Source: Taibaiella chishuiensis
Lineage (GTDB): Bacteria > Bacteroidota > Bacteroidia > Chitinophagales > Chitinophagaceae
Assembly: GCF_003014535.1 (NCBI RefSeq)
Contig: NZ_PYGD01000007.1
Span: forward strand, 186,001 to 250,000
Direction: 5' to 3'
Length of the DNA stretch: 64,000 nt
Positions 26,601 through 54,008 of this stretch are shown piece after piece (position 1 is the first letter of the stretch; every line of letters begins with the position of its first letter). A program made the position numbers and the translations under genes. The notes beneath the pieces were generated by a model, which worked only from the letters and a program-made list of their open reading frames with translations, ran no database searches and had not been told where the DNA came from.

Positions 26601-29234
26601 ATCTTTAATGGTAATGGTAAAGAATGGACTTGTATTTTCCAGTGCATGCTCTAATATGGTGTAACCATACATTGGATGGCCTTCCTTTGGTCTGATTGCA
26701 TATTCCTGGGTAACCTTTGTACTCTTTTTATCCACGTCCACCTTGAAGCTGTCCACTGATCGCAGGTAAAAGACTTTAGTTTCCGAACCAAATAATTCTG
26801 TGGCATACCTGCAATAGAATTCTTCAGGAATCCAGCGTTCTCCAAGATTAAAATCTAATAATTCAAAAGGAACATATTCAGGCTGTACCTTTTCAATAGC
26901 TTCAAGACTACGTTTATGATGATAGCTGTCAGGATTGCTATCCAGTCCATAAATGGCCTGTTGAAGCTTTTCAATAACATTCCCGCTTAAATACTGATCT
27001 CTGGTTTCCCATTTTCCTGATTGAGGATTGAGGTAGACATGCTCTCCTAACATCTCTATGGCTTCGTTTGCGCTAACTGAAATAGCCGAAGCGATTTGTT
27101 CTATATCTACCTTTCCTTTGGAGTTAAGACAATGTGCAAGGGCTTCTACCGGGTCAGAAGTAGAGAAAGCCATTGCTGCCTTATTTAGGTTGGTATGGAA
27201 TATGTCTGAGCGTACAAAACTATTGCCCTCCCTCCTTTCTAGCGAAGACAGCAAGACTACCCCAGAGGCTTCATCGACAAGAATAAGTTTCTTGTTGTGT
27301 GGAGCATTGATAAGACCATAACTCGTGACAAACTCGTCATATTTCCTATTGAGCTGCTCCCTCAACTGGTGATAGCTCATTCGCATTTCGTCGGAACTTT
27401 CCTTGTCGAAGAGTTCAAAATAGTTATCTCTTAAGGCGATTAATGACTTATAAAAGCGCAGCTCCTTCGGGTTGTCAAGAGAAATATAATCAGCCTTGCC
27501 GGCTTTTTTATCGATCACTGTCAATCTGCAAACTTGCTCGTTATGGATGACCAGTGATCCGGTTTTATGGAATGAAGTAATTCGATCAAATTTATTGTGT
27601 ACCGGTGCCTGAACACTATTCAATTGTGTTTTAAAAAAGTGTTCTAAGGTCTGATCTCCCTGGTAGATGAAATCATAAGCATATCCTTTAAGGACATCAG
27701 ACAACAGGTTCACCTCTTTGCTTAAAAGCGAGGCGTTCAACCACTTGGCAGGGGTCTTAACTTCAGCAAGATTTGAACACAGTTTGTAAACATAAAAACT
27801 GCCTTTTTTTGCCTTTGCAGTGATCAGTACAATGCTGTCATGAGTTTTGCGCTCTTGTGTTTTAATTGTTGAAATAATCCTGGCAGAAGGTCTGTGAACT
27901 ATCTTTTCATCGCCATCTGTAATGTAAGCACCTGCTTTTGTTTGGATCTCTGCCGGAACCACATCAAACAATCCCAGTTGAAATGTTGCTTGCGGAGTTT
28001 CGGTTATTGGGACTTCTAAGAAAGTAAGAGTCTTTGTTCCAGCAGAGGCATTGGGGTGTTTCTTTCCATGAGAAGGGTAAAGACCAGGTCGTAAGTTTTT
28101 GGAGAAATCGAAACTTAATTTCTCCTTAAGCAACGCCTTTAATTCGTCAAAAGGTCCGTTATGGTAAACCACTTCATGTGCTTTTCCATATTGATTGGTT
28201 CCTGGTCGGGTTTCTCCAATTATAGAATAAACATTGTTTTCATTTACCAGATAGTGATTCCTGCTATATTGGCCGTATTCATTCTGCAAATTGCTTGTTT
28301 CGATTAAGTCCCTTTCTTCCGGGCTTAAAGTGGATTTCCCATTATTTTTCTGTACAATCAGCAAATGGCTTGGTGCCTGCGTTCCACCGGTGTCATACAT
28401 AAGTTGATCAGGCATGACCGCCAAGCTGATAAAGTCGGCATGATTAAACAGGTATTCCCTGGCTGCCCTGTTTGAAGGGCTATTTAAAAAGCCATCAGTG
28501 GTTAGGTACACGATAAGTCCACCATCTTCAAGTTTGTCAAGTCCTTTTACAAAAAAATAATTGTGAATCTTGCCAGATAAGTCCGCATTGCGGATTTCAG
28601 GATCAAATACAGAGAAGTCGCCAAAAGGAATGTTGCTTATCACCAGGTCATAAGTTCCATTATCATCATTGGGTGTTTCTTCAAACCCGCAATGATGAAC
28701 TTCCGTTTGAATAAGAAGATTTTTTGCAATTGCATCAAGGACTCTTGCTGTTACCAAGTCCTTTTCAACTGAAGTAATATGTTGCACAGAAAGCAATTGA
28801 TCTACTGCCTGAGTAATGAAAACGCCTGCCCCTGCACTAGGTTCATAGATTCGTGAAGGTTGAAGAAGGTTCTCCTGCAGAACCTCATAGATTGCCTGCG
28901 GTATAATCTCCGGGGTGTAAAACGCAGTCAGAACACTACTTTTTAATGAAGCAATTACTTCTTTATATGCTACAGGACTGAACTTCTCTTCAAGAATCAA
29001 ATGCAGATGCATTATGTCATCATACAAACGAAGGTCATTTTCCTTTGCACCACTATCAATCCAGCTTTCCTTGCTGCCTTTGTCAAACAGAATAGCTTTT
29101 ATGCCTCCGAAGCCTGCATACTTCTTTAGGCTTTCCAGATTAGCATCGGTAAGAGTGGTGCCTGCATCATGAGCTAAAGCAATTTGGATTGCCGTTATAT
29201 TGTCCCGTAACTTATGTAGAGCGTTATATGCCAT
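23667..29234 (-). CDS. N6-adenine methylase-SNF2 helicase fusion (DarB-like antirestriction protein)
   Basis: An 1855-residue protein. The N-terminal methylase domain has an AdoMet-binding block EPSAGAGVF (about 140-150) and the catalytic NIPF at 201-204. The middle and C-terminal part is an SF2/SNF2 helicase with GLGKT (K983), DESHK (D1145) and the motif VI-like GRGARQGN (about 1490). This matches the large methylase-helicases of Bacteroidetes conjugative elements and resembles phage P1 DarB, which protects incoming DNA from type I restriction. The helicase/methylase order and length are typical, so it looks intact. It lies within the transfer operon, so the DNA-protection role is a reasonable inference. 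Confidence 0.9.
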
Positions 29235-37637: not shown

Positions 37638-38648
37638 ATGAATTTTCTGGAAATACTTAAAGAGGTACAATCGACTAAAAAATCAATTAAGACCACTCCG
37701 CATGTCGCTTTAAAACATTTAGGTTTTGCAAAAAGAGGATGGCGAGTTAACGAAAAAGTTTATAAACTGTTAGAGGATCACGACGTCATGTGTGAACCAA
37801 CCTTTGAACATGTTTATATTTATGGAGAGATTGAGATTTCAGCTAGACCTAAAGCTTCAATCAAAAAATCTACAGAAGAGAATGAAGATTCTGATCCTAT
37901 ACCAAGACTTAGTTTACTCAAGGCATCTGACTTAACAGTGGAGATAGATGGTGCGCCGAATCCCAATAAATTAATATTCGTTAACAGAGATACGACTGTG
38001 GAAAAAGCAGTGACTTTAATGTTATACCATGATTTTTCACAGTTACCTATATTAAGTGGTAAAACAGTAGAGGGAATGATTAGTTGGAAGTCAATCGGTA
38101 AAGCAATGTCTTTAGGTCATCCTTGTGAAACAGTAAACCAATGTAAAGAAGACGTTCGTGTGTTAGAGTTGAATGTACCTTTATTTGATGCAGTCAAAAC
38201 AATACTAGAGAAAGAAGTAGTACTTGTTAAGAAAAGAGATCAGTCAATTTGCGGTATTGTAACAATTACCGATATAGGGGAACAATTTATTTCAATGGCT
38301 GAACCTTTCTTAGTACTTGAACAAATTGAGAACCACATTAGGAAAATCCTAGATAAGAAGTTCAGTGAGGAAGAATTAAATGCAATTTGCAATCCTGATG
38401 CAACTCGGAAACCATTAGAAGTTCTTTCAGACCTAAATTTTGGAGACTACCTAAAGCTCATTGAGGGAGAAAACAATTTTAAAAAACTCGGACTCAAAGT
38501 TGATAGGGTGATGTTTCTAAATCAGCTTGATGATGTTAGGCAAATTCGAAACGATGTAATGCACTTTGATCCTGACATTAAGAATTCTGAATTAATGATC
38601 ATTTTGAGGCGAACTGTTAAATTTTTATCTAACCTTTTACATCCCTAA
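37638..38648 (+). CDS. CBS-domain protein with a C-terminal HEPN-like motif
   Basis: A 336-residue protein. An N-terminal region (about 1-75) looks like a winged helix (VALKHLGFAKRGWRVNEKVY). Residues about 105-235 form a CBS pair: NRDTTVEKAVTLMLYHDFSQ with LPILSGKTVEGMISW, then ILEKEVVLVKKRDQSICGIV with TITDIGEQ. The C-terminus has QIRNDVMHFDPD, with R304 and H309 fitting the HEPN R-x4-H ribonuclease motif. CBS pairs bind adenosyl nucleotides, and HEPN domains are frequent RNases in conflict systems. The nucleotide-gated effector role is an inference. Confidence 0.75.
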   Translation: MNFLEILKEVQSTKKSIKTTPHVALKHLGFAKRGWRVNEKVYKLLEDHDVMCEPTFEHVYIYGEIEISARPKASIKKSTEENEDSDPIPRLSLLKASDLTVEIDGAPNPNKLIFVNRDTTVEKAVTLMLYHDFSQLPILSGKTVEGMISWKSIGKAMSLGHPCETVNQCKEDVRVLELNVPLFDAVKTILEKEVVLVKKRDQSICGIVTITDIGEQFISMAEPFLVLEQIENHIRKILDKKFSEEELNAICNPDATRKPLEVLSDLNFGDYLKLIEGENNFKKLGLKVDRVMFLNQLDDVRQIRNDVMHFDPDIKNSELMIILRRTVKFLSNLLHP

Positions 38649-41758: not shown

Positions 41759-44700
41759 ATGAAATTTTTTTCAGCCTATGGTAATTACCATGGCAAAGAA
41801 AAGCTGCGCGTCCTGTCCTGGTATTCAGGACTACACCCGGCAATTAAAAGAAAGGTCATCATGAGGATAAACTTCGTTGCATTTCTTTTGTTCATGAGCC
41901 TTATCAATGCCCATGCTGCAACGTACGCCCAAAGTGTAACGCTATCTGTGCGTAACAAGCCTTTGATAGAAGTCCTCAACGAGATCAACAAGCAAACAGG
42001 ATACGAGCTGATTTACAATACCAGGCACTTTGCAGCGGCGAACAATGTTACATTAACTGTAAAGAGCAAAAGCCTGGTTGAAACCCTCGACAAATGTTTT
42101 GCAGGACAACCTCTGCAATACGAGATTATTGATAAAACCATTGTCATCAAACCCAAAGCTCCAACGTCAAAGGAAAAAGTAAAAGGCACTTTAAAAAAGA
42201 TTCTTATAACAGGCAAAGTGCTGGATGAATCAGGAAAACCTTTGTCTGGAGTGAATGTGTCTGTTAAGGCTACGAATATTAAGACGTCAACGGATGAACA
42301 AGGCACATTCAGCATTGATGTTCCTGATATCGGAACTGTACTTAGGTTCTCTTTCGTGGGGTTTCAAATCTTTGAACATACGGTAATAAATAGCTCACCC
42401 CTTTCCATAAAGCTTAGACAAGAATTTGCCCAATTAGAAGAAGTCGGGATCATCAGCACCGGGTATCAGTCTTTACCGAAGGAAAGGGCTACAGGTTCTT
42501 TTGTTCAAATTGACAATGAATTATTGAACCGAAGAACTTCAACCTATATCCTTGAGCGACTTGATGGAATTACCAGCGGATTTCTATTCAATGGCACAGC
42601 CTCTAAGAACATTAGAAACTTACCAACAACTAATAGAAACCTTGGTATCAGTATCAGAGGGGAAAGTACTATTCTTGGTGCAAAAGATCCGCTTATTGTG
42701 GTTGATAACTTTCCATATGACGGCGATATCAGAAATATTAACCCTAATGATGTAGAATCTGTAACCGTGCTTAAAGATGCTGCTGCTGCTTCAATTTGGG
42801 GAGCAAGAGCTGGAAATGGTGTAATCGTAATTACTACTAAGAAAGGGAAGATAAATGAAAAAATGCAGGTTGAGCTTAATACTAACTTGACTGTTGCTAA
42901 TGAACCAAATTTATTTGCAGACAAAAATTTCATGAGCTCCATGGAATTTATTGAAGCAGAAAAATTCCTATTTGACAAGGGCTACTTCAATTCCGACATT
43001 TCGAATAATACGGCTATGACGGCTGTATCACCGGTTGTTGATATTCTGTCGCTGCAAAGGTCTGGCTTAATTTCAGCAGTCGAAACAGAAACTCGTTTAG
43101 ACTTGCTGCGCAACAGTGATGTAAGAAACGACTTTGAGAACTATGTATACCAGAAAGCTGTTAGCCAGCAATATTCCCTGGGTGCCCGCGGCGGTGGAGC
43201 TAATTCGACGTATGCGCTTTCCATAGGTTATGATCAAAACACCGACGCTGTGAAACGCAACGGTTATAATAGAATTACAATAAATTCCTTCAACACCTAT
43301 ACTCCGGCTAAAAACCTTGAAGTGTCTGCTGGGCTTAACTATAGTCTTAATAACACATTACTCAACAATACTACTAACTTGTTTGGGACTACGTTTTCTA
43401 TGACCCCCAGATACAATCGAATTTTCCCATACTCAAGTCTTCGAGATGAAAACGGAAGTAATTCGATATTACTACGATCATTTAAACCATCCTATCTTGA
43501 ACAAGCGGCGGCTAAAGGGTTTTTAGATTGGGCCTACCGCCCATTAGACGAAATCGCATATGCCGACAATAGCACGAAGATAAGGGCCCTACTTTTTCGT
43601 GTTGGTGCAAAGTATAATATTGGCTCTAACTTTAATGCTGAAGTCAACTTTCAGAGCGACCAACAAACGATTGCCGGCCGCAATTATCAAAGCCAGTTGA
43701 CATATTACACCCGTGACCTAATCAACAAGTTCTCACAAATTGATCCTACGACCAAAACACTAAATTATATATTTCCTTTGGGAGGAATAATGACCACCAA
43801 TAACAATGATTGGCGAACAAATAGTTTAAGGGGCCAAATTAATTATAGCGAAACTTTTCAACAACATCAGGTCGTAGCCTTGGTCGGTGCAGAAGTTAGG
43901 GAAACAAAAGCTACGGGAGTCGGAAGAACATCGTATGGATACGATGAACAATTTGGCACTAGTATCATGAATTTGAACTACACGACCTCATATCCCGCAA
44001 ATCCATCGGGAACGGCTAGGATTGCAAGCCCAGATGGAAGTATAAATACCTACCTAAACAGGTTCATTTCTTACTACGCTAATGTTGCGTATGTATTTAG
44101 ACATAGGTACACCTTAAATCTCAGCGCCCGAAAAGATGGTTCTAATATTTTTGGGGCAAGTGCCAACAACCGGATTACACCACTTTGGTCGGTGGGTACA
44201 TCCTGGGCAATTGATAAAGAGGATTTTTATAAACTGGTCTGGCTACCTTATTTGAAGTTGAGAGCCACCTTTGGATACAATGGTAACATTGGTAATGCAA
44301 TAGCGTTATTAACCGGAAGGTATGCGACCAACAATATTACAGGGCAACAGTATCTTAATATTTTGACAGCCCCTAATCCCGAACTTAGATGGGAAAGGGT
44401 CAGAAATATTAATCTAGGGCTAGATTTCAAAAGTCAAAGCGATATCTTGAGCGGAACCCTAGAGTTCTTTAGAAAAGATGGAGTCGATCTTTTACAGCCC
44501 ACACCTTTAGCCGCCCAAACAGGATTTTTGACTTATACAGGCAACGCGGCGAGTACAAGAACTTCTGGAATTGACTTCACCTTGCAAAGCCGCAACATTA
44601 ATTCCCTGTTCAAGTGGAATACCTCATTGTTACTTTCAAGAATTGTCGATAAAGTCCGTCGCTATGATGTGAAGCAGACGTCGACTTCTATTCAGACAAC

Positions 44701-45373
44701 GGGAGCGCCCGTTGCGTTAATAGGGAAACCTATGTATAGCATTTTTAGTTACAAATGGACAGGTCTTGACCCACTCAATGGCGATCCCCAAGGCTATTTG
44801 AATGGCGTAATGAGTAAAGACTACGCTGCAATAATAAATAACTTTAGTCCGGACAGCCTTATTTTTCATGGCTCTGCAAGACCAACCGTGTTTGGTTCCC
44901 TGCGTAATGATTTCTACTACAAGGGTTTTAGTCTTTCCGTTAATGTGGTTTATAAGTTTGGTTATTATATTCGAAAACCGACGATATCGCTTAACTACTC
45001 GGACATTGTCAGTCAAAATAGGAATACCGATTATGGGTCTCGATGGAAGGTGCCGGGTGACGAATTACACACTAATATACCCTCTATCGTATATCCTTCC
45101 AACTCAGCCCGAAATAATTTTTACCAGTATTCCGAGTCCCTGGTTCAACGCGGTGACCATGTTCGCCTACAGGATATTAGCCTAGGCTATCTGGTGCCTC
45201 AGAAGCTTATTAAAGGAATTAACCGTATCCAGTTGTATGCGTATTTGAACAATATTGGTATTTTATGGAGAAAGAATGATTCTGGAATCGACCCTGATTC
45301 CTACAGTACTGGCGGGGCGTCGGTATTTCCCAATCCGCTCTCTATTTCATTTGGTGTAAATGCTAACTTTTAA
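41759..45373 (+). CDS. SusC/RagA-family TonB-linked outer-membrane receptor with STN domain
   Basis: A 1204-residue outer-membrane transporter. After a signal peptide (ending HAATYAQS near residue 55), an STN signalling domain covers about 56-120 (PLIEVLNEINKQTGYELIYN). A carboxypeptidase-regulatory-like domain follows at about 145-225 (ITGKVLDESGKPLSGVNVSV), then the plug (DPLIVVDNFPYDGDIRNINP, DVESVTVLKDAAAASIWGAR) and the beta barrel ending VFPNPLSISFGVNANF. The STN domain links it to the FecR and sigma factor upstream. Its stop overlaps the susD start. Confidence 0.95.
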   Translation: MKFFSAYGNYHGKEKLRVLSWYSGLHPAIKRKVIMRINFVAFLLFMSLINAHAATYAQSVTLSVRNKPLIEVLNEINKQTGYELIYNTRHFAAANNVTLTVKSKSLVETLDKCFAGQPLQYEIIDKTIVIKPKAPTSKEKVKGTLKKILITGKVLDESGKPLSGVNVSVKATNIKTSTDEQGTFSIDVPDIGTVLRFSFVGFQIFEHTVINSSPLSIKLRQEFAQLEEVGIISTGYQSLPKERATGSFVQIDNELLNRRTSTYILERLDGITSGFLFNGTASKNIRNLPTTNRNLGISIRGESTILGAKDPLIVVDNFPYDGDIRNINPNDVESVTVLKDAAAASIWGARAGNGVIVITTKKGKINEKMQVELNTNLTVANEPNLFADKNFMSSMEFIEAEKFLFDKGYFNSDISNNTAMTAVSPVVDILSLQRSGLISAVETETRLDLLRNSDVRNDFENYVYQKAVSQQYSLGARGGGANSTYALSIGYDQNTDAVKRNGYNRITINSFNTYTPAKNLEVSAGLNYSLNNTLLNNTTNLFGTTFSMTPRYNRIFPYSSLRDENGSNSILLRSFKPSYLEQAAAKGFLDWAYRPLDEIAYADNSTKIRALLFRVGAKYNIGSNFNAEVNFQSDQQTIAGRNYQSQLTYYTRDLINKFSQIDPTTKTLNYIFPLGGIMTTNNNDWRTNSLRGQINYSETFQQHQVVALVGAEVRETKATGVGRTSYGYDEQFGTSIMNLNYTTSYPANPSGTARIASPDGSINTYLNRFISYYANVAYVFRHRYTLNLSARKDGSNIFGASANNRITPLWSVGTSWAIDKEDFYKLVWLPYLKLRATFGYNGNIGNAIALLTGRYATNNITGQQYLNILTAPNPELRWERVRNINLGLDFKSQSDILSGTLEFFRKDGVDLLQPTPLAAQTGFLTYTGNAASTRTSGIDFTLQSRNINSLFKWNTSLLLSRIVDKVRRYDVKQTSTSIQTTGAPVALIGKPMYSIFSYKWTGLDPLNGDPQGYLNGVMSKDYAAIINNFSPDSLIFHGSARPTVFGSLRNDFYYKGFSLSVNVVYKFGYYIRKPTISLNYSDIVSQNRNTDYGSRWKVPGDELHTNIPSIVYPSNSARNNFYQYSESLVQRGDHVRLQDISLGYLVPQKLIKGINRIQLYAYLNNIGILWRKNDSGIDPDSYSTGGASVFPNPLSISFGVNANF

Positions 45374-46782
45374 TGGGACCTAACATGAAAATTAATATGC
45401 AAATAATATATTCAGCATTCCTGATCGTACTTGTAATGGCAGTAGCGGGCTGTAAAAAACAAAATGATTGGCTGGATGCAAAGAGTCAGAATTCATTTGT
45501 TGTTCCGGAAACCTTAAAGGATTATCAAGCTTTATTGGAGAATCCAATCACAGTCCATAACGCGTTTTCAATATTTGGGCTTGTGGGCGCGGACAACTAT
45601 TATTTAAGAGAATCTGATTTTCCGGGTTCTGCTGAAGATGTGCGTAATGGTTACATCTGGAGGCCTTCAATTTGGGTTGACGGAAATTCTCCTGACTGGA
45701 ATAGTTTCTTCGCCATTATAGAACTTTCCAACATCATACTTGACGGATTAAGCAAAAAGGGACTCAATAATGATCAGGCAACTTTCAATAGCATAAAAGG
45801 GCAGGCTTTGTTCTATAGAGCGATCAGTTATTACAACCTTTCGCAGTTATTCTGCAAAACTTATGACGCTGGTTCCGCATCATCAGACCTCGGCTTACCA
45901 ATTCGATTAAACTCCAATGTCAATATTATCTATCAAAGAAGTTCGATTGAAGAAACCTACAAACAAATGGTAGCGGATACAAAAGCAGCTATTGAGTTGC
46001 TTCCTGCGACTCAGGTAAACAACCGTAGACCAACAAAAATTGCTGCCAACGCTTTACTCGCAAAAATATACCTGTGTATGGAAGTTTATGCTGAGGCAGA
46101 GTACTATGCTAGCGAGTCACTAAAATTGAATAGTACACTGCTTGACTTTAACAGCAGTTATGCTTCTCTGAACCTCACTTATCGTTTTGCGGAAGCCGGA
46201 ATAAATCATCCTGAAATATTGTTTTATGCTCAAGGCGTAGGGTACTCTCCAGTAATACCTCATGCTTTCGCGAATGGTAGAGTATCGATGACGCTTATTA
46301 ATCTTTATAATGCCAACGACCTAAGAAAGTTGTTTTTTTTCGCCTCAAATGGTAATGAATTTCAGTACAGGGGAACGTATACAGGAAACACCAGCACATT
46401 TTGTGGAATTGCCAATAACGAAGTTTTTCTTATAAGTGCGGAAGCAAAAATTCGTACCGGTGATATTAATGGCGGAGTAACGGATGTCAATACGCTTCTC
46501 AGTAAAAGATACAAAACTGGAACCTTCGTGCCATATACCATAACTGATGGCGAGCTGGCATTGAGCCTTGTTCTTGAGGAAAGAAGGAAAGAATTACCGT
46601 TTGTTGCAAATCTAAGGTGGGAGGATCTTAGACGACTGAATAAAGATCCAAGGTTCAAAATTACTTTAACCAGGCAGGTCGCAGGAGTAAACTATATTTT
46701 AGAGCCCGGCAGTAATAAATATGTACTTCCAATTCCAGATAATGAAATCCAGATAAGCGGCATATCCCAAAATCCCAGATAA
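45373..46782 (+). CDS. SusD/RagB-family nutrient-binding lipoprotein
   Basis: A 469-residue surface lipoprotein; the lipobox-like VAGC lies near residue 26. A helical TPR-type core (ALFYRAISYYNLSQLFCKTY, KIAANALLAKIYLCMEVYAE) and the C-terminal ELALSLVLEERRKELPFVAN with LRWEDLRRL are diagnostic of SusD. It caps the SusC barrel. Its ATG overlaps the susC TAA (TAATG). An alternative start is ATG 45385. Confidence 0.95.
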   Translation: MGPNMKINMQIIYSAFLIVLVMAVAGCKKQNDWLDAKSQNSFVVPETLKDYQALLENPITVHNAFSIFGLVGADNYYLRESDFPGSAEDVRNGYIWRPSIWVDGNSPDWNSFFAIIELSNIILDGLSKKGLNNDQATFNSIKGQALFYRAISYYNLSQLFCKTYDAGSASSDLGLPIRLNSNVNIIYQRSSIEETYKQMVADTKAAIELLPATQVNNRRPTKIAANALLAKIYLCMEVYAEAEYYASESLKLNSTLLDFNSSYASLNLTYRFAEAGINHPEILFYAQGVGYSPVIPHAFANGRVSMTLINLYNANDLRKLFFFASNGNEFQYRGTYTGNTSTFCGIANNEVFLISAEAKIRTGDINGGVTDVNTLLSKRYKTGTFVPYTITDGELALSLVLEERRKELPFVANLRWEDLRRLNKDPRFKITLTRQVAGVNYILEPGSNKYVLPIPDNEIQISGISQNPR

Positions 46783-46808
46783 AATTTGCACACTTAATTT
46801 GATTAGAA

Positions 46809-48329
46809 ATGAATAATATATTATCCGCATTAGCTTCCGTATCGCTATGTTTTGCCTTACTATTTACAAGTAGTATCAGTAAGTCGGGGACTAAAAGTAA
46901 GGCCATTTCAATTGCAAAAGCAGGCACCGTTATTATTAATCTTGAATACAGTCAATATCAGCCGGGGGACACCTTAATGATCAGAAAAATAGATCTGATG
47001 AACACTACTGATCACAAGAACTACTATCCAGTAAAAGACCTAAATGGGATGTTTCGATTTGAATTTCCGGCCGTCGAAAAATGTGGCTATTGGGAGCTCA
47101 TTGAAATAAATAGGAATTTCGATAAACGAGGACAATTTATCGAACAAGCCCTTTCGATGTCTTACTTTTGGGAAACTGGAGATAGTATTACTTATTACCT
47201 TTCTAAAACCCGGCTTGCTCCTTTTGCTTTTGCAATGGCCCAGTTCATCGGCCGTGGTGCCTTTAAGTACAATGTTAGCCGGGCAATCAATGATTTAAGT
47301 ATCGTTAACGGGCTTCCACAAAAAAAACGTTTAAATCCCTGGTTTAACGATCGTTTTGAATTTATAAGACAAACAGATACGCTACTCCAAATGAAATTGG
47401 ATTTACTTCTGTCACTTAAGCCGGGGCTATCCTCTTTGTCATATGAAGTACTAAAAGCTGATGCTATTTATTCCAATGATTCGCCAGAATATTTTACTCG
47501 TAAATATTTCGATGATTATGTTTCGAAACTTCCCAAGTCTAATAGAGAAAAGTTGGTTGCAAATTATTTCAGAACATTTGGTAATGTTTCCCTATCTGCG
47601 ATTAGTATTGATGGAATTGAAAACTCTGCTTATTCAGCTTCTTACTTGCGGAAAAAGCTTTCAACATCAGCGTATTTGTTATCCGGCAAGGAAGATCAAG
47701 TTGGTACATACAACCAGATTAAACAAAATACCGGCGGTTATATTCGGGAGCGAATATTATCAGGATATTTTTTGGGATCAAGACTGGTGGAAAATATTGA
47801 TAGCCTAATAGTTGACGCTAAGAACTTGTTTGTTTCAAATTCGGGTAAGATTATTTATGAAAAGAAGATCTTACCAATGACCTTCAAAAAGAAATTTAAG
47901 AATTACGAATTAGTAAACCGTGAAGGTAGTACGGTCACTTTAAATAAATTCCTTGGTAAAATTCAGGTACTGGATTTTTGGTTTTCTGGCTGCGGAGGCT
48001 GTATGCTGTATTATACTACTGCGCTATCAAAGGCGGAGGAACATTTCAAGAACGACCCGGAGGTTGAATTCATTTCTATAACATCAGATCGCAATGCAGA
48101 CATTTGGGAGCAGGCCATAAAAAGCAAGAAATACACAAACGAAAGAGTTACGAATCTGAGTACCAAAGGAAGTGAGCATGCTATTTATAAAGAGAATAAC
48201 ATTCATTCTACTCCAACAGCATTGTTACTGGATAAGGACGGTACGGTTGTATTCAACAACACCTCCAATTTGTACAATGTCGATGGGTTGATTAAGGCAA
48301 TTGCTGAACTTAAAAGTAAAAAAAGGTAA
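46809..48329 (+). CDS. TlpA-type thioredoxin-fold protein
   Basis: A 506-residue exported protein. A signal segment and a long N-terminal domain of about 360 residues precede a thioredoxin/AhpC-TSA domain (about 370-500). The redox motif is C395-G-G-C398 within VLDFWFSGCGGCMLYY, and the cis-Pro loop is NIHSTPTALLLDKDG. TlpA-like proteins often follow SusC/SusD in Bacteroidota. Its own substrate is unknown. It is 26 nt from susD and ends at a shared terminator. Confidence 0.88.
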   Translation: MNNILSALASVSLCFALLFTSSISKSGTKSKAISIAKAGTVIINLEYSQYQPGDTLMIRKIDLMNTTDHKNYYPVKDLNGMFRFEFPAVEKCGYWELIEINRNFDKRGQFIEQALSMSYFWETGDSITYYLSKTRLAPFAFAMAQFIGRGAFKYNVSRAINDLSIVNGLPQKKRLNPWFNDRFEFIRQTDTLLQMKLDLLLSLKPGLSSLSYEVLKADAIYSNDSPEYFTRKYFDDYVSKLPKSNREKLVANYFRTFGNVSLSAISIDGIENSAYSASYLRKKLSTSAYLLSGKEDQVGTYNQIKQNTGGYIRERILSGYFLGSRLVENIDSLIVDAKNLFVSNSGKIIYEKKILPMTFKKKFKNYELVNREGSTVTLNKFLGKIQVLDFWFSGCGGCMLYYTTALSKAEEHFKNDPEVEFISITSDRNADIWEQAIKSKKYTNERVTNLSTKGSEHAIYKENNIHSTPTALLLDKDGTVVFNNTSNLYNVDGLIKAIAELKSKKR

Positions 48330-48355
48330 ACAAGGAATTTCCTTGTTTACCTTTT
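48321..48355. terminator. Bidirectional terminator of the TlpA and DUF6520-like genes
   Basis: A 15-bp perfect stem (48321-48335 with 48341-48355) with A and T feet overlaps the tlpA stop codon and ends 5 nt before the end of the convergent gene. Confidence 0.9.
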
Positions 48356-48359
48356 GCCG

Positions 48360-48644
48360 TTAAAAAGCAGGCCTTTTGCTTACGATTGTTGTTAAGCCAG
48401 GGTTGTTTGCTTCCGAAATGGAAATCTGAAGATCGGAATGTTCTTCTGTTGTAACGATTTCACATGGCACAGCGGTTCCTTGGTCACAAAGTGGACTTGG
48501 CGAAGTTGACAATAAGTAGTCAGAGCCACTTACACCTACGACATAGTAGGTATAGGTATCTTCCTGGGTTGTTTTGTTTTCGCGAGCAAAAGAAGCGTTA
48601 GCAACTGCCATGAGGATGACAGCGGAAAAAAGTACTTTTTTCAT
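48360..48644 (-). CDS. Small exported two-cysteine protein (DUF6520-like)
   Basis: A 94-residue protein with a classical signal (MKKVLFSAVILMAVANASFA). The mature part has the LCDQGTAVPCEIVTTEE two-Cys segment, which resembles DUF6520-type small periplasmic proteins of Bacteroidota. It is encoded near a lanthipeptide-type precursor on the same strand; a joint function is not shown by the sequence. Confidence 0.65.
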   Translation of the reverse strand: MKKVLFSAVILMAVANASFARENKTTQEDTYTYYVVGVSGSDYLLSTSPSPLCDQGTAVPCEIVTTEEHSDLQISISEANNPGLTTIVSKRPAF

Positions 48645-49025
48645 AAAAAATGGTTTAAGAAATTAAGAAAATGATTAAAATGAAATGAAAAATGAAAGTG
48701 GGCTTCTGCTGCCTCATAAAGGAGCCTTTACAAGCGGTGAGGGAATGTGTTTGAGTATTGGGAATGCTTATCTGGACGGCCTGGAAACAAGGCCTAGTGT
48801 GATGTTTTCTATGGTGATAGAATCTGGATTCTTTTCGAGAGCTTATACTTCTAAATCCTGGAATTGGACAATATTTAAATAAATAGCGTTTTGACACTAA
48901 GTGTTTATGAATAGTTTATAAAGAAAATATTATAACTTATGATTAAAGTTTAAATTTATTTTCGGTATTTTTAATTACAAAAAGTATCAAATGAACCGGG
49001 CGAATTCGCCCGGACTCATAGCTTC
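48645..49025. other. Intergenic region with terminator of the precursor gene
   Basis: I see no convincing gene. A 65-residue rightward frame at 48685-48882 lacks features. The right part holds the palindromic terminator at 48996-49013. Confidence 0.55.
48996..49013 (-). terminator. Terminator of the lanthipeptide precursor gene
   Basis: CCGGGCGAATTCGCCCGG is a perfect 18-bp palindrome 13 nt past the precursor stop, followed on the minus strand by a T-rich stretch. Confidence 0.65.
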
Positions 49026-49175
49026 TTACTTCAAACAAGTTTTACTTACGGTTGTAGCTGTGAGCAATGAAGAAGTAGGGTCTGACTTCCCTCCTTTTAC
49101 AGAGTCATTTGAGTTTTTCTCAAATTTGTAAGTGGTTTTCCTCATGATTGGAAATGTTAATGATCTTGTTTTCAT
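49026..49175 (-). CDS. Putative class I lanthipeptide precursor peptide
   Basis: A 49-residue peptide. The leader (MKTRSLTFPIMRKTTYKFEK, then NSNDSV) ends in a KGGK segment, and the C-terminal 19 residues (SDPTSSLLTATTVSKTCLK) are rich in Ser and Thr with one Cys at position 47. Size, charge pattern, Gly-Gly boundary and Ser/Thr/Cys-rich core fit a RiPP precursor. A LanB dehydratase is encoded 1.9 kb away on the same strand, and a LytS/LytTR pair is divergent. The -7 box TATCTTTG lies 44 nt upstream. An internal ATG at 49145 could give a 39-residue form. No LanC gene is visible, so the mature product could be a dehydrated linear peptide or cyclised elsewhere. Confidence 0.65.
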   Translation of the reverse strand: MKTRSLTFPIMRKTTYKFEKNSNDSVKGGKSDPTSSLLTATTVSKTCLK

Positions 49176-49218
49176 CTTGTTACGGTTTGTGTTAATATTT
49201 GTTTTGTTGTTGGTATGT

Positions 49219-49226
49219 CAAAGATA
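49219..49226 (-). promoter_or_regulatory. Promoter -7 box of the precursor gene
   Basis: TATCTTTG on the minus strand is a perfect TAnnTTTG, giving a leader of about 40 nt. The -33 TTG is uncertain (spacing about 24). Confidence 0.6.
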
Positions 49227-49258
49227 ATATCCCTTGCTGACGCTATTTTTCAATTTAT

Positions 49259-49297
49259 GTGAAATCCGCTTTTCACGATGTGAACCCCGCATTTCAC
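49259..49297. promoter_or_regulatory. Two 21-bp-phased inverted repeats in the precursor/kinase divergent region
   Basis: Two units of GTGAA(A/C) followed by TTTCAC lie at 49259-49276 and 49280-49297, exactly 21 bp apart, or two helical turns. Each unit is itself a dyad. They sit 17 nt before the kinase start and about 33 nt from the precursor -7 box. Two dimers bound on one DNA face is a likely reading, with the neighbouring LytTR regulator as the obvious candidate. Confidence 0.7.
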
Positions 49298-49313
49298 TTT
49301 TTATGCTAAAAAA

Positions 49314-50360
49314 ATGAACACCGAAAAAGGAACTAATTTTAAAACAATTGGATTGCATGCGCTGGCAGTACTGACGTTTGTAGCCTATGAAATCACGACT
49401 ATGGTTTTAACACAAAAGCCATTTAATCCTTGGGTTTTGCTTTGCTTTTATTCAATGCATATAGTTTTCTTCTACATTACTGCGTTTTATTTCCTTTCCT
49501 ATATCAACTCTAAAGTCTATTATCGGTTAGTAAGAATCCTGATGTGCGTCTTGGAAATAGTATTGTACAGTATAATTACCGTGGTAGTCTATAAAGTTAT
49601 AGAGCTAATCCTGAAGGGGAAATACACGACAGATAATCTTATCGGGGAATTCGTTGACAATGCCTGGAGGGGCTTTTACTTTTTTTTCCTTGCGTTGTGC
49701 TTTTGGTATGCCAGGTATAGCGTATTAAAGAAATTAGAGGCTAGGAATCAAGAAATTTTGAGATTACAAGCACAGGAAAATGAACTTAGAATGGAAGGCG
49801 CCTTTCTTCGCTCTCAGGTTAATCCCCATCAGCTTTTCAATACTTTCACTGTACTCTACTCGCGGTTACTTAGTAAAGCACCGGAGGAAGCCAAAATCAT
49901 GCTTCTTATATCTGATATGATGGAATACTCTTTGGATGCGGACGTAATAAGTGGTCAGGTCAGGTTGGGTGAAGATCTGTTACAAATTGACAGAGAAATC
50001 AGACTGCAGCAGGTTTTTTACAATGCGAACCTTAAAATAAAGTATGAGATAAAAATCGATGACCAGATTAAAGACATTAAACTGCCTCCCTTACTATTCA
50101 TGAATTTCGTGCAGAACATATTTAAACATGGCGATCTTAACGACCCGCTGGAACCTGCGACCATTACTATTGATAATATTGGAAACGTGCTTCACTTTCG
50201 CACAAGCAATAAAATCGCACCATCACCTAATGCCCCGAGTAAAAATACTGGATTAAATAACACACGGACCCGCTTGGAGAGACATTATCCGGACAGATTT
50301 GAATTGCTAACACACCAGGAGTCCGGTTTATTCTTGGTGGACCTAAAAATTTCATTATGA
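49314..50360 (+). CDS. LytS-type sensor histidine kinase
   Basis: A 348-residue kinase. Four membrane helices (about 10-150) are followed by a coiled-coil linker and a His-kinase domain with SQVNPHQLFN (H172 the phosphoacceptor) and a C-terminal ATPase region with PLLFMNFVQNIFKHG and NTGLNNTRTRLERHYP. It is the sensor half of the pair with the gene that overlaps its stop codon (ATGA). The signal is unknown; the place beside the peptide precursor suggests peptide or cell-envelope sensing. Confidence 0.92.
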   Translation: MNTEKGTNFKTIGLHALAVLTFVAYEITTMVLTQKPFNPWVLLCFYSMHIVFFYITAFYFLSYINSKVYYRLVRILMCVLEIVLYSIITVVVYKVIELILKGKYTTDNLIGEFVDNAWRGFYFFFLALCFWYARYSVLKKLEARNQEILRLQAQENELRMEGAFLRSQVNPHQLFNTFTVLYSRLLSKAPEEAKIMLLISDMMEYSLDADVISGQVRLGEDLLQIDREIRLQQVFYNANLKIKYEIKIDDQIKDIKLPPLLFMNFVQNIFKHGDLNDPLEPATITIDNIGNVLHFRTSNKIAPSPNAPSKNTGLNNTRTRLERHYPDRFELLTHQESGLFLVDLKISL

Positions 50361-51061
50361 GTATACGTTGTTGCCTCATTGACGATCAGCCCGCAGTAAT
50401 GGAATTGATCGAAGGTTATCTGACCAAAATGCCAGGATACGAAGTGGTCGCTAAAGAAACAGATTCTTTAGAAGCTTTCCGAAAGTTTGTAGCTGATGAA
50501 ATAGTTGCTGATCTAACTTTTATGGACATCGATATGCCGAGAATGAACGGCATAGAGTTAGGTTCTAAAATTAAGGATATGACTTCAATTATTTACTTGA
50601 CTGCTCACAGAAACTACGCACCGGAATCCTATGAGAATGGTGCAATAGATTATCTTGTAAAGCCTGTATCATTCCAGAAATTTCAATCGTGTATTGAAAA
50701 GGCTAGGCAAAAGCTTGACGCTCAGGAGCGTGAGGCCGAAAAAGAATCGATTATTTTCATCCCCGGTAGTGGTAGAACAAAGATCAGAGTAAATAAGCCC
50801 GAGATAGTCCGCATTCAGGGAGCTTCAAATTACATCTGGGTTATCACTCATGAGCATCATCACTTGGCCTATATTTCAATGGCCCAAATGGCATCGTACC
50901 TACCTAAGAAAAATTTTGTCAGAATTCATAAGTCCCACATCATTAATCTGGCGCACGTTATTCAGCTCGACCCAAATACGGTCTATATGCCTGAAAATCA
51001 GGAATTACCTATTTCTGAATCCTTCAAGAAAGAGCTTGCGGCCAGGATAAGACCTCGCTAA
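50357..51061 (+). CDS. LytTR response regulator
   Basis: A 234-residue regulator with an N-terminal receiver domain (LIDDQPAVMELIEG; phosphoacceptor D57 in FMDIDMP; YLVKPVSFQKF loop) and a C-terminal LytTR DNA-binding domain (EIVRIQGASNYIWVITHEHH, NFVRIHKSHIINLAHVI). It overlaps the kinase by 4 nt. It probably controls the precursor and its own operon via the repeats at 49259-49297. It converges on the LanB gene. Confidence 0.94.
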   Translation: MSIRCCLIDDQPAVMELIEGYLTKMPGYEVVAKETDSLEAFRKFVADEIVADLTFMDIDMPRMNGIELGSKIKDMTSIIYLTAHRNYAPESYENGAIDYLVKPVSFQKFQSCIEKARQKLDAQEREAEKESIIFIPGSGRTKIRVNKPEIVRIQGASNYIWVITHEHHHLAYISMAQMASYLPKKNFVRIHKSHIINLAHVIQLDPNTVYMPENQELPISESFKKELAARIRPR

Positions 51062-51077
51062 TCCTGGAGAAATTGCC

Positions 51078-53897
51078 TCATTTTCTGAGCATTTTAAATG
51101 CACTCTCACGCTGAAGGTCCTTAAGCATGAAGTTATAGATGAGCATCTCATGGGTCCTTTGGTTGCTGTTAAACAACCTGTTTACATGCATATGGAACAG
51201 GTCCGTAAACAGATTGTATCTCCTGGTTAGTGCACAGTCTCGTAGCGTATCCTTAAATGATTCCTTGAAATCATGACAGCTGCGGTTGGTTTCACGATTC
51301 ACATCATTTTGGTTACTTTCAAGATATTTCGAGTAGTATCTGTTGGCCTTTTTAAAATCATCCATATTCATGGAATGCTCTTTATTAAAGGAATCCCGCA
51401 TTTTTTTAAGGGTATCATGAAAATTATCCTGGGGTTGGAAGACTTCCTTTGCAACCGCTGTTATAAACTGCGAACACAAACGATACTTTACCTGATCGGT
51501 TAAAGATTGGCGTAAAAGAATGAGCACATATGCGCTATCTTTTTGAAAATGGGATTCGACAAGATCTATTAGGTCGTTTCCATATCTTTCGACCTCCCTC
51601 CTATAGGTCTTCACCTGCAGATCAGATATTATTCCTAATGCGAATTCTTTGGCAAAAGAAACATTGAGTGCTTGTATTATTTTTTGACCGTCGCTAAACT
51701 TCTTGAATTTTACTCTCAACCTGATATGATCACCATTTTCGTTGTACCGGATAAAGAACCAACTTTCGATATATGCCTTATAATTTCTGAGCAATCTGGA
51801 TATGGGTTCAAGCAATAATCCGTCAGCACGCTGAGGATGGCAGTAGATTTCAAAGTATAACCAGTCATATGCAGGTGGATACGCAGGCGTATTTGTGATG
51901 TTCAGATTGCGATTCTCAATCGACACGTCTTTATAAATCTCTTCGGTGTGCGTCATCGTGAGTAATACCTGTCCGCAAAACTGCTTGCCCTTTCTGTCAA
52001 AGAATGGGCTTCGGTCAGGAATCAGAGCCTCCTCAATATAGAGCGAACTGACCTTTTTGCTATATTGAATAAACATCCGAATATCTGAAGCATTGTTGAC
52101 ATTGAAACAAAGAGTCTGATCCAATTGGCCTGTTTTAAAATACGCGCCTATACCAATGTCCTTTAGATATTGAGTGCAGGCATCGATATTTTGTTGTTCG
52201 TCTTCATGTTCGAGAAAATCGTTAGGCACAATCTTCCACGATGCTGGTGAGACTATGATGTTTTTATATTGCACTCGCGGATAGAACTTCAGGTTAGGAA
52301 TGCTATTTTGTATTCTTATGGAAAAACCGGATTGGATTCCCTGGTGTTGAAGATCACAAAGGAACCGGAATGCAGGCAAGTCAGAGCGAGAATAATTATA
52401 GGCTGAAGCCAGACGTGGGATAACTCGTTTATTGTTGATTTTAGACCGTAAAATCAGCTCATCTCCCTGCAATCTTATTACAAGGTCGTTTAATGAAACT
52501 GGAGCGTCGCAAGCGCTGTAATTTTGAATATTCAATTGATGCTCGTAGATAGATTTCCTTCTATTCACATTGTCAACAGTAACCTCGGCCATGTAAGCAA
52601 TGTCAAAAAATATAACCTCGGGGTTACTTTGGCTTTCTATGTTTGCTATGTCTCTGCAAAAATTCAACAATTCATTACTGGCAAGTGTAAACCTTCCAGC
52701 AAGTGCGTTGGCGGTGCACCCGCCTAGGTGGTCTATCTGAATCAGCCCGTCTGAAACCGAAAGCATTGCGCTAAAGGAATTGGGTAGCATTGTCTTTTTA
52801 GTACCTGGCTTAAATTTATGATCGTCCAGAAGAATAACCTTACGCTGAAAACCTTCTGTATCATTAAACCGGTCGATAAGCAAAGACTTTAAAGGCAGAT
52901 CTACATCCTCTAGGTTATTTTTCTCTTTTGCAATAAAATCGGTTACTTTAAATTCCGTGCTTTCAGTTTGAGCGAATGTCCCATATTCTATACCAAGCTC
53001 CGGGTCCAGGGCTTCGAGCAACGACACCTCTTTCTGATCGTATTTCCTTCTGAAGCTTTGCTTGAATTTTTTCATAAGATTTGGCTCCAGGTCTTCACCA
53101 CTGATATCTTGCAGTATTTCAGTAAGCTGCGGCAGTGCTTTGAACAGATCCGCAGGCAAATGACCCGCTTCCTTTGCCCGCTGGCTAATGATGTATTTCT
53201 GTTCTGCCTTATTTAAGGTAATTCCATTTCGTTGAAAAAAATCGATCCCTACGATATTTCGGTGCTGATCGCTGAAGATCAGCTGTAGATTGACCAGTTC
53301 ATTGATCAACAGGTGAAGATCTCTCCAGCTCAAACCGAGGGCATCGACTTCATTTCTTAAAAGACTAAATCTGATTGGTATGCGGCAGGCATTTAAAATT
53401 GTTTCGATAGTTTTATCATACCCGATATCTGTTAACTCAAATGTTCCTGAGTCCTTGTAGATATAACGTATAATGTCATCAATACGATAATAGCTGCTGT
53501 TTGATATCACAAGTCCATCCTCTGCAAGCAGCGTAGAGAAACTAAACTGCGGGTCGTTTTGATATGCCCAATCAACAAACTCATGTGCTTCCTGCTGATC
53601 TTTTAATAGGATTCCAGAAGAAAAGTCATTGCTTATTTCACTTATTCCAATGCTCGCAAAAGTGCCATAGGGGACTGCTCTTAACCTTGCACGATTGAAG
53701 TATTTAAAAATAGAAAAAAGGACTTTGGGGGAAAGTCCTTTAAGTTCTTCTGCTGTAATGTCTTTTATCTCTTTGTAAAAATCCTTCGAAGATATTGAAA
53801 TAGCATCTTTTAAATCCTCCCAATGCCATTTCAACTCTGCATCTATTGGAAATTTAGGAATTCGGTATAGTACTGTTTTTTCAATTTTCAATTTCAT
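51078..53897 (-). CDS. lanB: Full-length class I lanthipeptide dehydratase (LanB family)
   Basis: A 939-residue LanB-type enzyme that activates Ser/Thr of a precursor with glutamyl-tRNA and eliminates glutamate to give dehydro residues. The N-terminal glutamylation domain carries the family block RARLRAVPYGTFASIGI near residues 70-87 and a GGCTANALAGRF loop near 388. The C-terminal elimination (SpaB_C/thiopeptide-type) domain starts at about 675, with WLYFEIYCHPQRADGLLLEP and SWFFIRYNENGDHIRLRVKF. Both halves are in one chain, unlike the split enzymes of some Chitinophaga clusters. The length is close to NisB. It lies convergent to the LytTR gene; no LanC or transporter is next to it. Confidence 0.92.
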   Translation of the reverse strand: MKLKIEKTVLYRIPKFPIDAELKWHWEDLKDAISISSKDFYKEIKDITAEELKGLSPKVLFSIFKYFNRARLRAVPYGTFASIGISEISNDFSSGILLKDQQEAHEFVDWAYQNDPQFSFSTLLAEDGLVISNSSYYRIDDIIRYIYKDSGTFELTDIGYDKTIETILNACRIPIRFSLLRNEVDALGLSWRDLHLLINELVNLQLIFSDQHRNIVGIDFFQRNGITLNKAEQKYIISQRAKEAGHLPADLFKALPQLTEILQDISGEDLEPNLMKKFKQSFRRKYDQKEVSLLEALDPELGIEYGTFAQTESTEFKVTDFIAKEKNNLEDVDLPLKSLLIDRFNDTEGFQRKVILLDDHKFKPGTKKTMLPNSFSAMLSVSDGLIQIDHLGGCTANALAGRFTLASNELLNFCRDIANIESQSNPEVIFFDIAYMAEVTVDNVNRRKSIYEHQLNIQNYSACDAPVSLNDLVIRLQGDELILRSKINNKRVIPRLASAYNYSRSDLPAFRFLCDLQHQGIQSGFSIRIQNSIPNLKFYPRVQYKNIIVSPASWKIVPNDFLEHEDEQQNIDACTQYLKDIGIGAYFKTGQLDQTLCFNVNNASDIRMFIQYSKKVSSLYIEEALIPDRSPFFDRKGKQFCGQVLLTMTHTEEIYKDVSIENRNLNITNTPAYPPAYDWLYFEIYCHPQRADGLLLEPISRLLRNYKAYIESWFFIRYNENGDHIRLRVKFKKFSDGQKIIQALNVSFAKEFALGIISDLQVKTYRREVERYGNDLIDLVESHFQKDSAYVLILLRQSLTDQVKYRLCSQFITAVAKEVFQPQDNFHDTLKKMRDSFNKEHSMNMDDFKKANRYYSKYLESNQNDVNRETNRSCHDFKESFKDTLRDCALTRRYNLFTDLFHMHVNRLFNSNQRTHEMLIYNFMLKDLQRESAFKMLRK

Positions 53898-54008
53898 TTT
53901 TCAGGTTTAATTCCGAATTATAATGAAACAAATCTTTTGAAAATCTGAAACTATGTGAAATGGCCGATTGACTATGTATAATGCCGTTCTATGTCCGCTT
54001 ATTAGTAT

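Follow-up and report, generated by a model that had tools for sequence, protein, structure and literature searches.

A LanB dehydratase gene without adjacent LanC beside a short Ser/Thr-rich peptide gene and a LytS/LytTR pair in Taibaiella chishuiensis: a probable family of LanB-modified linear peptides in Bacteroidota

The LanB enzymes glutamylate Thr and Ser residues from glutamyl-tRNA and then eliminate the glutamate, which leaves dehydrobutyrine (Dhb) and dehydroalanine (Dha). In the goadsporin and thiopeptide pathways, LanB-related dehydration is carried out by a split enzyme without lanthionine, and azoles are formed. The peptide aminoacyl-tRNA ligases (PEARLs) add amino acids and lack the elimination part. 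Among the signalling systems, Agr peptides undergo AgrB-type cyclisation, and the sites of ComE-type regulators are direct repeats 21 bp apart. In our study, we analysed a stretch of 64,000 nucleotides of Taibaiella chishuiensis (assembly GCF_003014535.1, contig NZ_PYGD01000007.1, positions 186,001 to 250,000 of the forward strand; hereafter the window), in which a small peptide gene, a LytS-type sensor gene, a LytTR-type regulator gene and a LanB gene were found together at positions 48,360 to 53,897. The locus is probably a member of a LanC-free family of LanB-modified linear peptides of Bacteroidota with LytS/LytTR control and sensing, a reading that we hold with moderate confidence.

The glutamylation and elimination biochemistry of LanB is also given in the consulted sections of the mining study of Walker et al. 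(PMC7268733). According to these sections, LanC was the starting point and Cys-free precursors were removed, so that the mining would miss the present peptide family by design. In the consulted sections of two further papers, a survey of the Bacteroidales reported no LanB in that order (PMC10352776), and Agr was placed in alphaproteobacteria, clostridia and bacilli and ComD-ComE in clostridia, with no Bacteroidetes named for these (PMC8895600). No description of the peptide family was found in the literature searched; the Pedobacter lanthipeptide work was covered incompletely, and an earlier notice is possible. The features of the locus are as follows.

48996..49013, minus strand: terminator-like hairpin, a perfect palindrome of 18 nucleotides with a T-rich stretch behind it, shortly after the precursor stop
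49026..49175, minus strand: precursor peptide gene, 49 amino acids (aa) with one Cys, from the sequence, the family alignment and a leave-one-out profile
49257..49298, no strand: two 21-bp direct repeats ATGTGAAATCCGCTTTTCACG / ATGTGAACCCCGCATTTCACT in the gap that separates the precursor gene from the divergent LytS gene, a proposed binding site of LytTR
49314..50360, plus strand: LytS-type sensor kinase, 348 aa, His_kinase PF06580 over the cut-off
50357..51061, plus strand: LytTR-type response regulator, 234 aa, overlapping the LytS stop, Response_reg PF00072 and LytTR PF04397 over the cut-off
51078..53897, minus strand: LanB dehydratase, 939 aa, Lant_dehydr_N and Lant_dehydr_C over the cut-off
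53951..53992, no strand: two 21-bp direct repeats CTATGTGAAATGGCCGATTGA / CTATGTATAATGCCGTTCTAT upstream of LanB, with TATGTGAAAT in common with the precursor promoter

A preliminary description had proposed an overlooked precursor of 49 residues at this place, and the gene was found to be real. A profile of 45 relatives, made without the window sequence, matched the window open reading frame (ORF) as the only one among the 667 ORFs of the window (E 2.9e-6). The dN/dS ratio in four groups of precursors was 0.32 (9 sequences), 0.16 (3), 0.10 (31, with the synonymous sites near saturation) and 0.09 (7), which clearly indicates purifying selection; the profile match and the selection together ruled out a chance ORF. 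The family alignment, the profile and the dN/dS ratios also showed that the frame is conserved in the relatives. The alignment divided the window precursor into the leader MKTRSLTFPIMRKTTYKFEKNSNDSVKGGK and the core SDPTSSLLTATTVSKTCLK, and translation may alternatively begin at the inner ATG (Met11). The hairpin behind the stop had a fold z-score of -3.74 (1 of 200 shuffles was equally stable), and its palindrome followed by the T-rich tail makes it look like a terminator.

The window precursor matched no Pfam or NCBIfam family. No known lanthipeptide leader family was encountered among 46 diverse precursors, which gave one weak NCBIfam match and eight weak Pfam matches, each from a single member and none to a lanthipeptide family. 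The alignment of these 46 members contained a conserved leader around KLxKKTLFVFK followed by a core starting at DPT, and the F16, D32, P33 and T34 residues (alignment numbering) were nearly invariant. Ser and Thr made up 36% of the core residues of the family. The core had earlier been placed behind a KGGK boundary; the conserved mark of the core start was D-P-T instead, and KGG was rejected as a processing site because it was not common to the family.

A genome-wide search for the precursor and a comparison of homologous loci, both proposed with the preliminary description, gave one copy in the T. chishuiensis genome (precursor profile) and 89 loci with the same peptide family. Pedobacter caeni and Pedobacter sp. 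N36a, found as named relatives of the window LanB, contained LanB, LytS and LytTR with a small Thr-rich, Cys-free ORF between the two regulator genes. Further loci of this kind were found in the taxonomic family of the window. The eight-peptide profile A2, read at E<=1 with matches below the first nine or so mostly due to chance, gave clear or likely members in about 8 of 394 genomes of the taxonomic family of the window. Larger profiles were applied to the genus that holds P. caeni, in another family, and matched 59 (profile A3) and 97 (profile A6) of its 145 genomes. A genome of this genus, G842, encodes a LanB identical to that of P. caeni.

The survey consisted of the surroundings of profile matches, searched with our own profiles and covering 6 kb on both sides for 74 of the 89 loci and less than 6 kb on one side for 15. 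L238 and L239 were dropped as duplicates of L011 and L012, and four weak A2 matches (L086-L089) were excluded; the short loci of the same matches looked like chance by eye. G933:C90:42299 and further places found by a wider profile were left out, whereas three LanB-centred loci (L235-L237) were added by choice, of which L236 counts as a precursor locus. After duplicate removal, the 89 loci contained 128 precursor genes, 120 of them distinct, with starts set by rule; a 31-aa fragment (L211) and an odd copy without DPT (L236) are included. Tandem arrays of 5-7 precursor copies were present in eight loci (L118, L119, L185, L204, L209, L211, L216 and L220), and two further loci carried two copies each.

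LytS was found within about 6 kb in 87 of the 89 loci and LytTR in 88, and the gaps lay at contig ends (L084, L217). In 86 of 87 loci, precursor and LytS were divergently transcribed. LytTR was convergent beyond the peptide gene in 76 loci and in line with LytS, which is the arrangement of the window, in 11. Peptide, LytS and LytTR are thus a constant unit, and the earlier assignment of an own two-component pair to the window locus was confirmed by Pfam for both proteins.

LanB was present near 38 of the 89 peptide loci. Near the other 51 no LanB was found, and there it probably acts in trans. The tallies of the P. caeni genus, which rest on per-genome rows, gave a LanB match in 115 of 145 genomes; 14 genomes with a match weaker than 1e-140 were listed by eye, and for one of these, G922, the match was a contig fragment. 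A LanB of about 940 aa was found in 94 of 97 peptide-positive genomes and in 7 of 48 peptide-negative genomes (Fisher p 3e-25), and any LanB in 96 of 97 and 19 of 48, respectively (Fisher p 1e-16), in tests which, like the permutations used below, ignore shared ancestry. The pairing of precursor and LanB, which had been assumed for the window, is supported by this co-occurrence. The 97 genomes contained 306 precursor matches, with a median of three and a maximum of nine, arrays included. In the genome G086, one LanB was accompanied by two peptide/LytS/LytTR modules elsewhere on the same contig.

The 51 loci without a nearby LanB could also be explained if the small ORF were not a LanB substrate, being a regulatory or membrane micropeptide of LytS/LytTR while LanB works on something else. 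We regard this explanation as highly improbable: the LanB type follows the peptide in 94 of 97 genomes, the linked and the unlinked (LanB-remote) modules have one common leader, the core is rich in Ser and Thr, and the LanB promoters have the same repeat spacing as the peptide promoters (see below).

The window LanB, described earlier as full length, was indeed found to contain both Lant_dehydr domains together with the NisB-type residues. It consisted of a glutamylation part, a winged helix at about residues 142-203 similar to a RiPP (ribosomally synthesized and post-translationally modified peptide) recognition element (RRE), and a glutamate-elimination part. The winged helix is placed where we take the leader-binding RRE to lie. 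The protein was aligned to NisB over both parts and to MibB mainly over the second. The R69, R73, R726, R728, E768, R771, H902 and R907 residues corresponded to R83, R87, R784, R786, E823, R826, H961 and R966 of NisB, which we take to be catalytic or important, and all eight were kept throughout the 38 peptide-locus LanBs apart from a single K in place of R826. The AlphaFold2 model of the window LanB had a predicted local distance difference test (pLDDT) of 83.3 and contained the winged-helix element near residues 142-203; its nearest solved structures were MadB, NisB and MibB, followed by TbtB and GodF. A PEARL-type enzyme was rejected, as Lant_dehydr_C and the elimination residues were present.

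In a tree of 58 LanBs, the 38 peptide-locus LanBs and four orphans were split from 14 LanC-linked LanBs and two more by one branch with a support of 99, and the split was unchanged, again with a support of 99, after the five longest rows were removed; both trees are quick ones with long branches flagged. From this split, a LanB branch without LanC exists, and it includes forms of about 1000-1025 aa. For two LanBs of the LanC group from the same genus (L097:5904-9095 and L102:6394-9618), LanC was not found in the fetched stretch.

With the LanC profile, no LanC was found at any of the 89 loci of the family, over a range of about 6 kb or to the end of the fetched stretch; as a control, the profile detected LanC close to 14 of 16 LanBs in the LanC group. 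The T. chishuiensis genome contained six LANC_like genes. It also encoded two more LanBs of full length, which lie on contig C1 and each have LanC near, so that the window LanB is the only one of the three in this genome without an adjacent cyclase. The earlier statement that LanC is missing therefore holds for the locus and fails for the genome. Around one of the two other LanBs (L045), inspection by eye gave genes for a C39-type ATP-binding cassette (ABC) transporter and an HlyD-like protein, and GG-type leaders in small ORFs close by. In the P. caeni genus, no LANC_like gene was found in 51 of the 97 peptide-positive genomes, which makes LanC unnecessary for the system.

A core Cys was present in 12 of the 120 distinct family peptides, and a Cys anywhere in 16. 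The core-Cys peptides included the window peptide, two peptides of the genome G001 and two with a common YPTCP motif. Most of the family has no core Cys and therefore cannot form lanthionine. With 108 of 120 cores free of Cys, LanC at 0 of 89 loci and 51 of 97 genomes without LanC, the term class I lanthipeptide-type, under which the locus had been introduced, finds no support as a name for the family, whereas the linear dehydropeptide that had been offered as an alternative to a single ring is supported. The single Cys noted earlier is indeed present in the window core and is exceptional within its family; it leaves one ring possible, for example closed in trans by one of the six LanCs. The window peptide would then be a one-ring class I lanthipeptide, dehydrated by LanB and closed by a distant LanC through a thioether at Cys. 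The core Cys, the six LANC_like genes and two precursors of the same-genus genome G001 which end in Cys fit such a product. We nevertheless consider it quite improbable, since the two LanB/LanC clusters of the genome have their own LanBs, which the tree places across the dividing branch, and since no LanC was found in 51 of the 97 peptide-positive genomes of the P. caeni genus.

The AlphaFold2 model of the window LytS (pLDDT 81.9, predicted template modelling score 0.51) contained four N-terminal helices joined to the kinase core and no extracellular domain. By a hydropathy scan, the window LytS has three membrane segments, and 79 of 87 LytS proteins have between two and four. The solved matches to the model included kinase cores such as those of GanS, DesK and AgrC. 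The similarity of the peptide cores tracked that of the membrane half of LytS when the kinase half was held (partial r 0.29, 86 loci; 0 of 300 permutations reached it) and also when the leader was held in addition (partial r 0.26; 0 of 300). As the permutations do not remove ancestry, this covariation is suggestive, and it bears indirectly on activation of the kinase by a secreted peptide.

Repeats spaced by 21 bp, scored as at least 8 of 10 bases alike at the exact spacing, were found in 41% of 87 precursor promoters, compared with 3-21% at the other 21 spacings (12 to 33) and 12% in shuffled sequences. They were also found in 39% of the 38 peptide-locus LanB promoters, compared with 1 of 14 LanC-type LanB promoters. 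In the window, the precursor and LanB promoters both contained TATGTGAAAT, and in each the second half followed 21 bp on. The two promoter sites were the only exact matches to TATGTGAAATS in the window; with up to one mismatch, four matches were found compared with 3.7 in shuffles, which is no excess. In the P. caeni relatives, the shared promoter element differed in its letters and had the same spacing.

From LanB biochemistry and the anatomy of the loci, we infer the following course. LanB, to which the short leader would guide the precursor, would use glutamyl-tRNA to glutamylate the Thr and Ser residues of the DPT core and would then eliminate the glutamate to give Dhb and Dha. The product would be linear and rich in both dehydro residues, and for most members the pathway would include no ring closure. 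Presumably freed of its leader and exported, the mature peptide may act on the divergently encoded LytS at its membrane part. This kinase would phosphorylate LytTR, which would bind the 21-bp-spaced repeats before the peptide and LanB genes; its activation would raise the peptide's own signal and so form a positive loop. One LanB may serve several unlinked peptide/LytS/LytTR modules per genome.

A more specific proposal is that the system is a quorum-sensing kind of its own in Bacteroidota, with linear dehydrated pheromones made by one trans-acting LanB, several insulated channels per cell, a sensor membrane part which reads its own core, and LytTR feedback on the peptide and LanB genes. We hold it tentatively, at slightly under an even chance. 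The product may instead be a small antimicrobial peptide with dehydro residues or one ring, for which LytS/LytTR only switches production in the manner of nisin autoinduction. The products of LanB are often antibiotics, the eight loci with 5-7 nearly identical precursors in tandem could serve a high yield, and exporter-like genes occur near a few loci. No constant exporter was present at the 89 loci, however, and no immunity gene was recognised, though no profile search was aimed at one; the many precursor genes per genome (306 in 97 genomes), the own sensor at 87 of 89 modules and the covariation of core and sensor fit signals better. An antimicrobial product is thus unlikely in our judgement.

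Several observations weigh against the reading of the locus as part of a LanC-free, LanB-modified linear-peptide family with its own control and sensing. No constant exporter or leader protease was found, and C39-type exporter-profile matches occurred within 6 kb of only 4 of the 89 loci (L120, L191, L196 and L249). The locus-by-locus match of peptide and LanB promoters was weak (mean 13.9 compared with 13.5 of 18, p 0.035; the promoter pairs listed are the best 16 of 38). The -7 box of Bacteroidota, which we take to be TAnnTTTG, was not enriched upstream of the precursors (3% of 87 compared with 7% in shuffled sequences), and the window has one match. Seven genomes had the LanB type with no peptide detected, and one peptide-positive genome (G932, 80% complete) had no LanB. 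Beside the LanBs of L039 and L041 no family peptide was recognised; the contig of L041 holds two peptide modules further off. The peptide was rare in wide samples, with 4 of 395 class genomes and 3 of 395 phylum genomes, the latter comprising that of the window and two from the P. caeni genus. Twelve peptides, among them that of the window, retain a core Cys, and the shared ancestry disregarded by the Fisher tests and permutations belongs here as well.

With regard to export, L201 contained a further piece of a C39-type exporter-profile match, cut by the end of the stretch. In L249 and L201, the end of an exporter-profile ABC-transporter gene lay directly before LanB on the same strand, with an HlyD-like gene seen by eye, which hints at the usual lanthipeptide export route. 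TlpA, SusD, MauE and DUF6520 were rejected as constant neighbours, being present in 14, 10, 4 and 2 of the 89 loci and in 1, 1, 0 and 0 of 26 other loci, respectively.

The surroundings of the locus in the window were also recorded. SusC, SusD, a thioredoxin-like protein of 506 aa and a DUF6520-like small protein border it at 41759-48644. The last of these, a 94-aa ORF at 48360-48644, lies inside the range given for the locus; its DUF6520 match is below the cut-off, and it stands outside the conserved unit. Neighbours similar to the SusC/SusD stretch were found at L040, L083 and L231 and were not constant. Conjugative-transposon genes (DUF4138, TraM, TraJ, TraG P-loop and RteC) were present on the minus strand at 11209-33607, including a 1855-aa protein with helicase and methylase-like matches at 23667-29234, and this integrative element is separated from the peptide locus by about 15 kb. 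In other genomes (L039, L041 and L120), LanBs of the family or a peptide module lie near ORFs that by eye resemble mobile-element genes (DUF932-like, single-strand-binding-like and RadC-like), so that the peptide/LanB system may move on such elements. A CBS-domain anti-phage protein of the DS11 family was encoded at 37638-38648 on the plus strand (NCBIfam NF053863, 355.7 bits with a cut-off of 260). In L043 and L085 (genomes G008 and G375), the peptide/LanB locus stood before a NusG-like ORF and nonribosomal-peptide-synthetase-like ORFs, by eye.

The described systems each share a part with this family. The class I lanthipeptide clusters (nisin, pinensin and PedA15.2 of Pedobacter lusitanus) share the full-length LanB with glutamylation and elimination parts, and by eye a two-component pair is also present near the LanC-type clusters of the window genome and of G010. 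Here, the locus has no LanC, mostly no Cys and no constant exporter, and the leader is short and without the GG site that was seen by eye in the other precursors of the window genome. The goadsporin and thiopeptide dehydratases (GodF, TbtB) were structural matches to the LanB model (6ec7, 6ec8 and 9jhq), whereas here one protein holds both LanB parts; no YcaO or azole-forming gene was found among ten window proteins scanned around the locus, with no genome-wide search made. In Agr and ComDE too, a gene for a small peptide accompanies those for a membrane kinase and a LytTR regulator, the latter two being present together at 87 of 89 loci of the family, and the 21-bp spacing of the direct repeats is that of ComE-type sites. 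Agr and ComDE differ in that the sensor here is a His_kinase of PF06580 and the peptide is proposed to be LanB-modified, and no AgrB-type protease was found among the ten proteins scanned around the locus, again with no genome-wide search made. The PEARLs have what we take to be a LanB-related fold, and the elimination part is present here.

LanBs are usually read as one half of a ring-making pair, and here a whole branch seems to do without the other half. In two or more families of Bacteroidota, this branch seems to act without a cyclase on peptides that mostly lack Cys. Should these prove to be signals, Bacteroidota would have a modified-peptide language in which a cell uses several channels, and the system would allow a study of how one RiPP enzyme serves many substrates. 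LanB chemistry and peptide/LytTR signalling are each already known, whereas the combination of the two, with one enzyme shared among peptides that mostly lack Cys, appears to be new.

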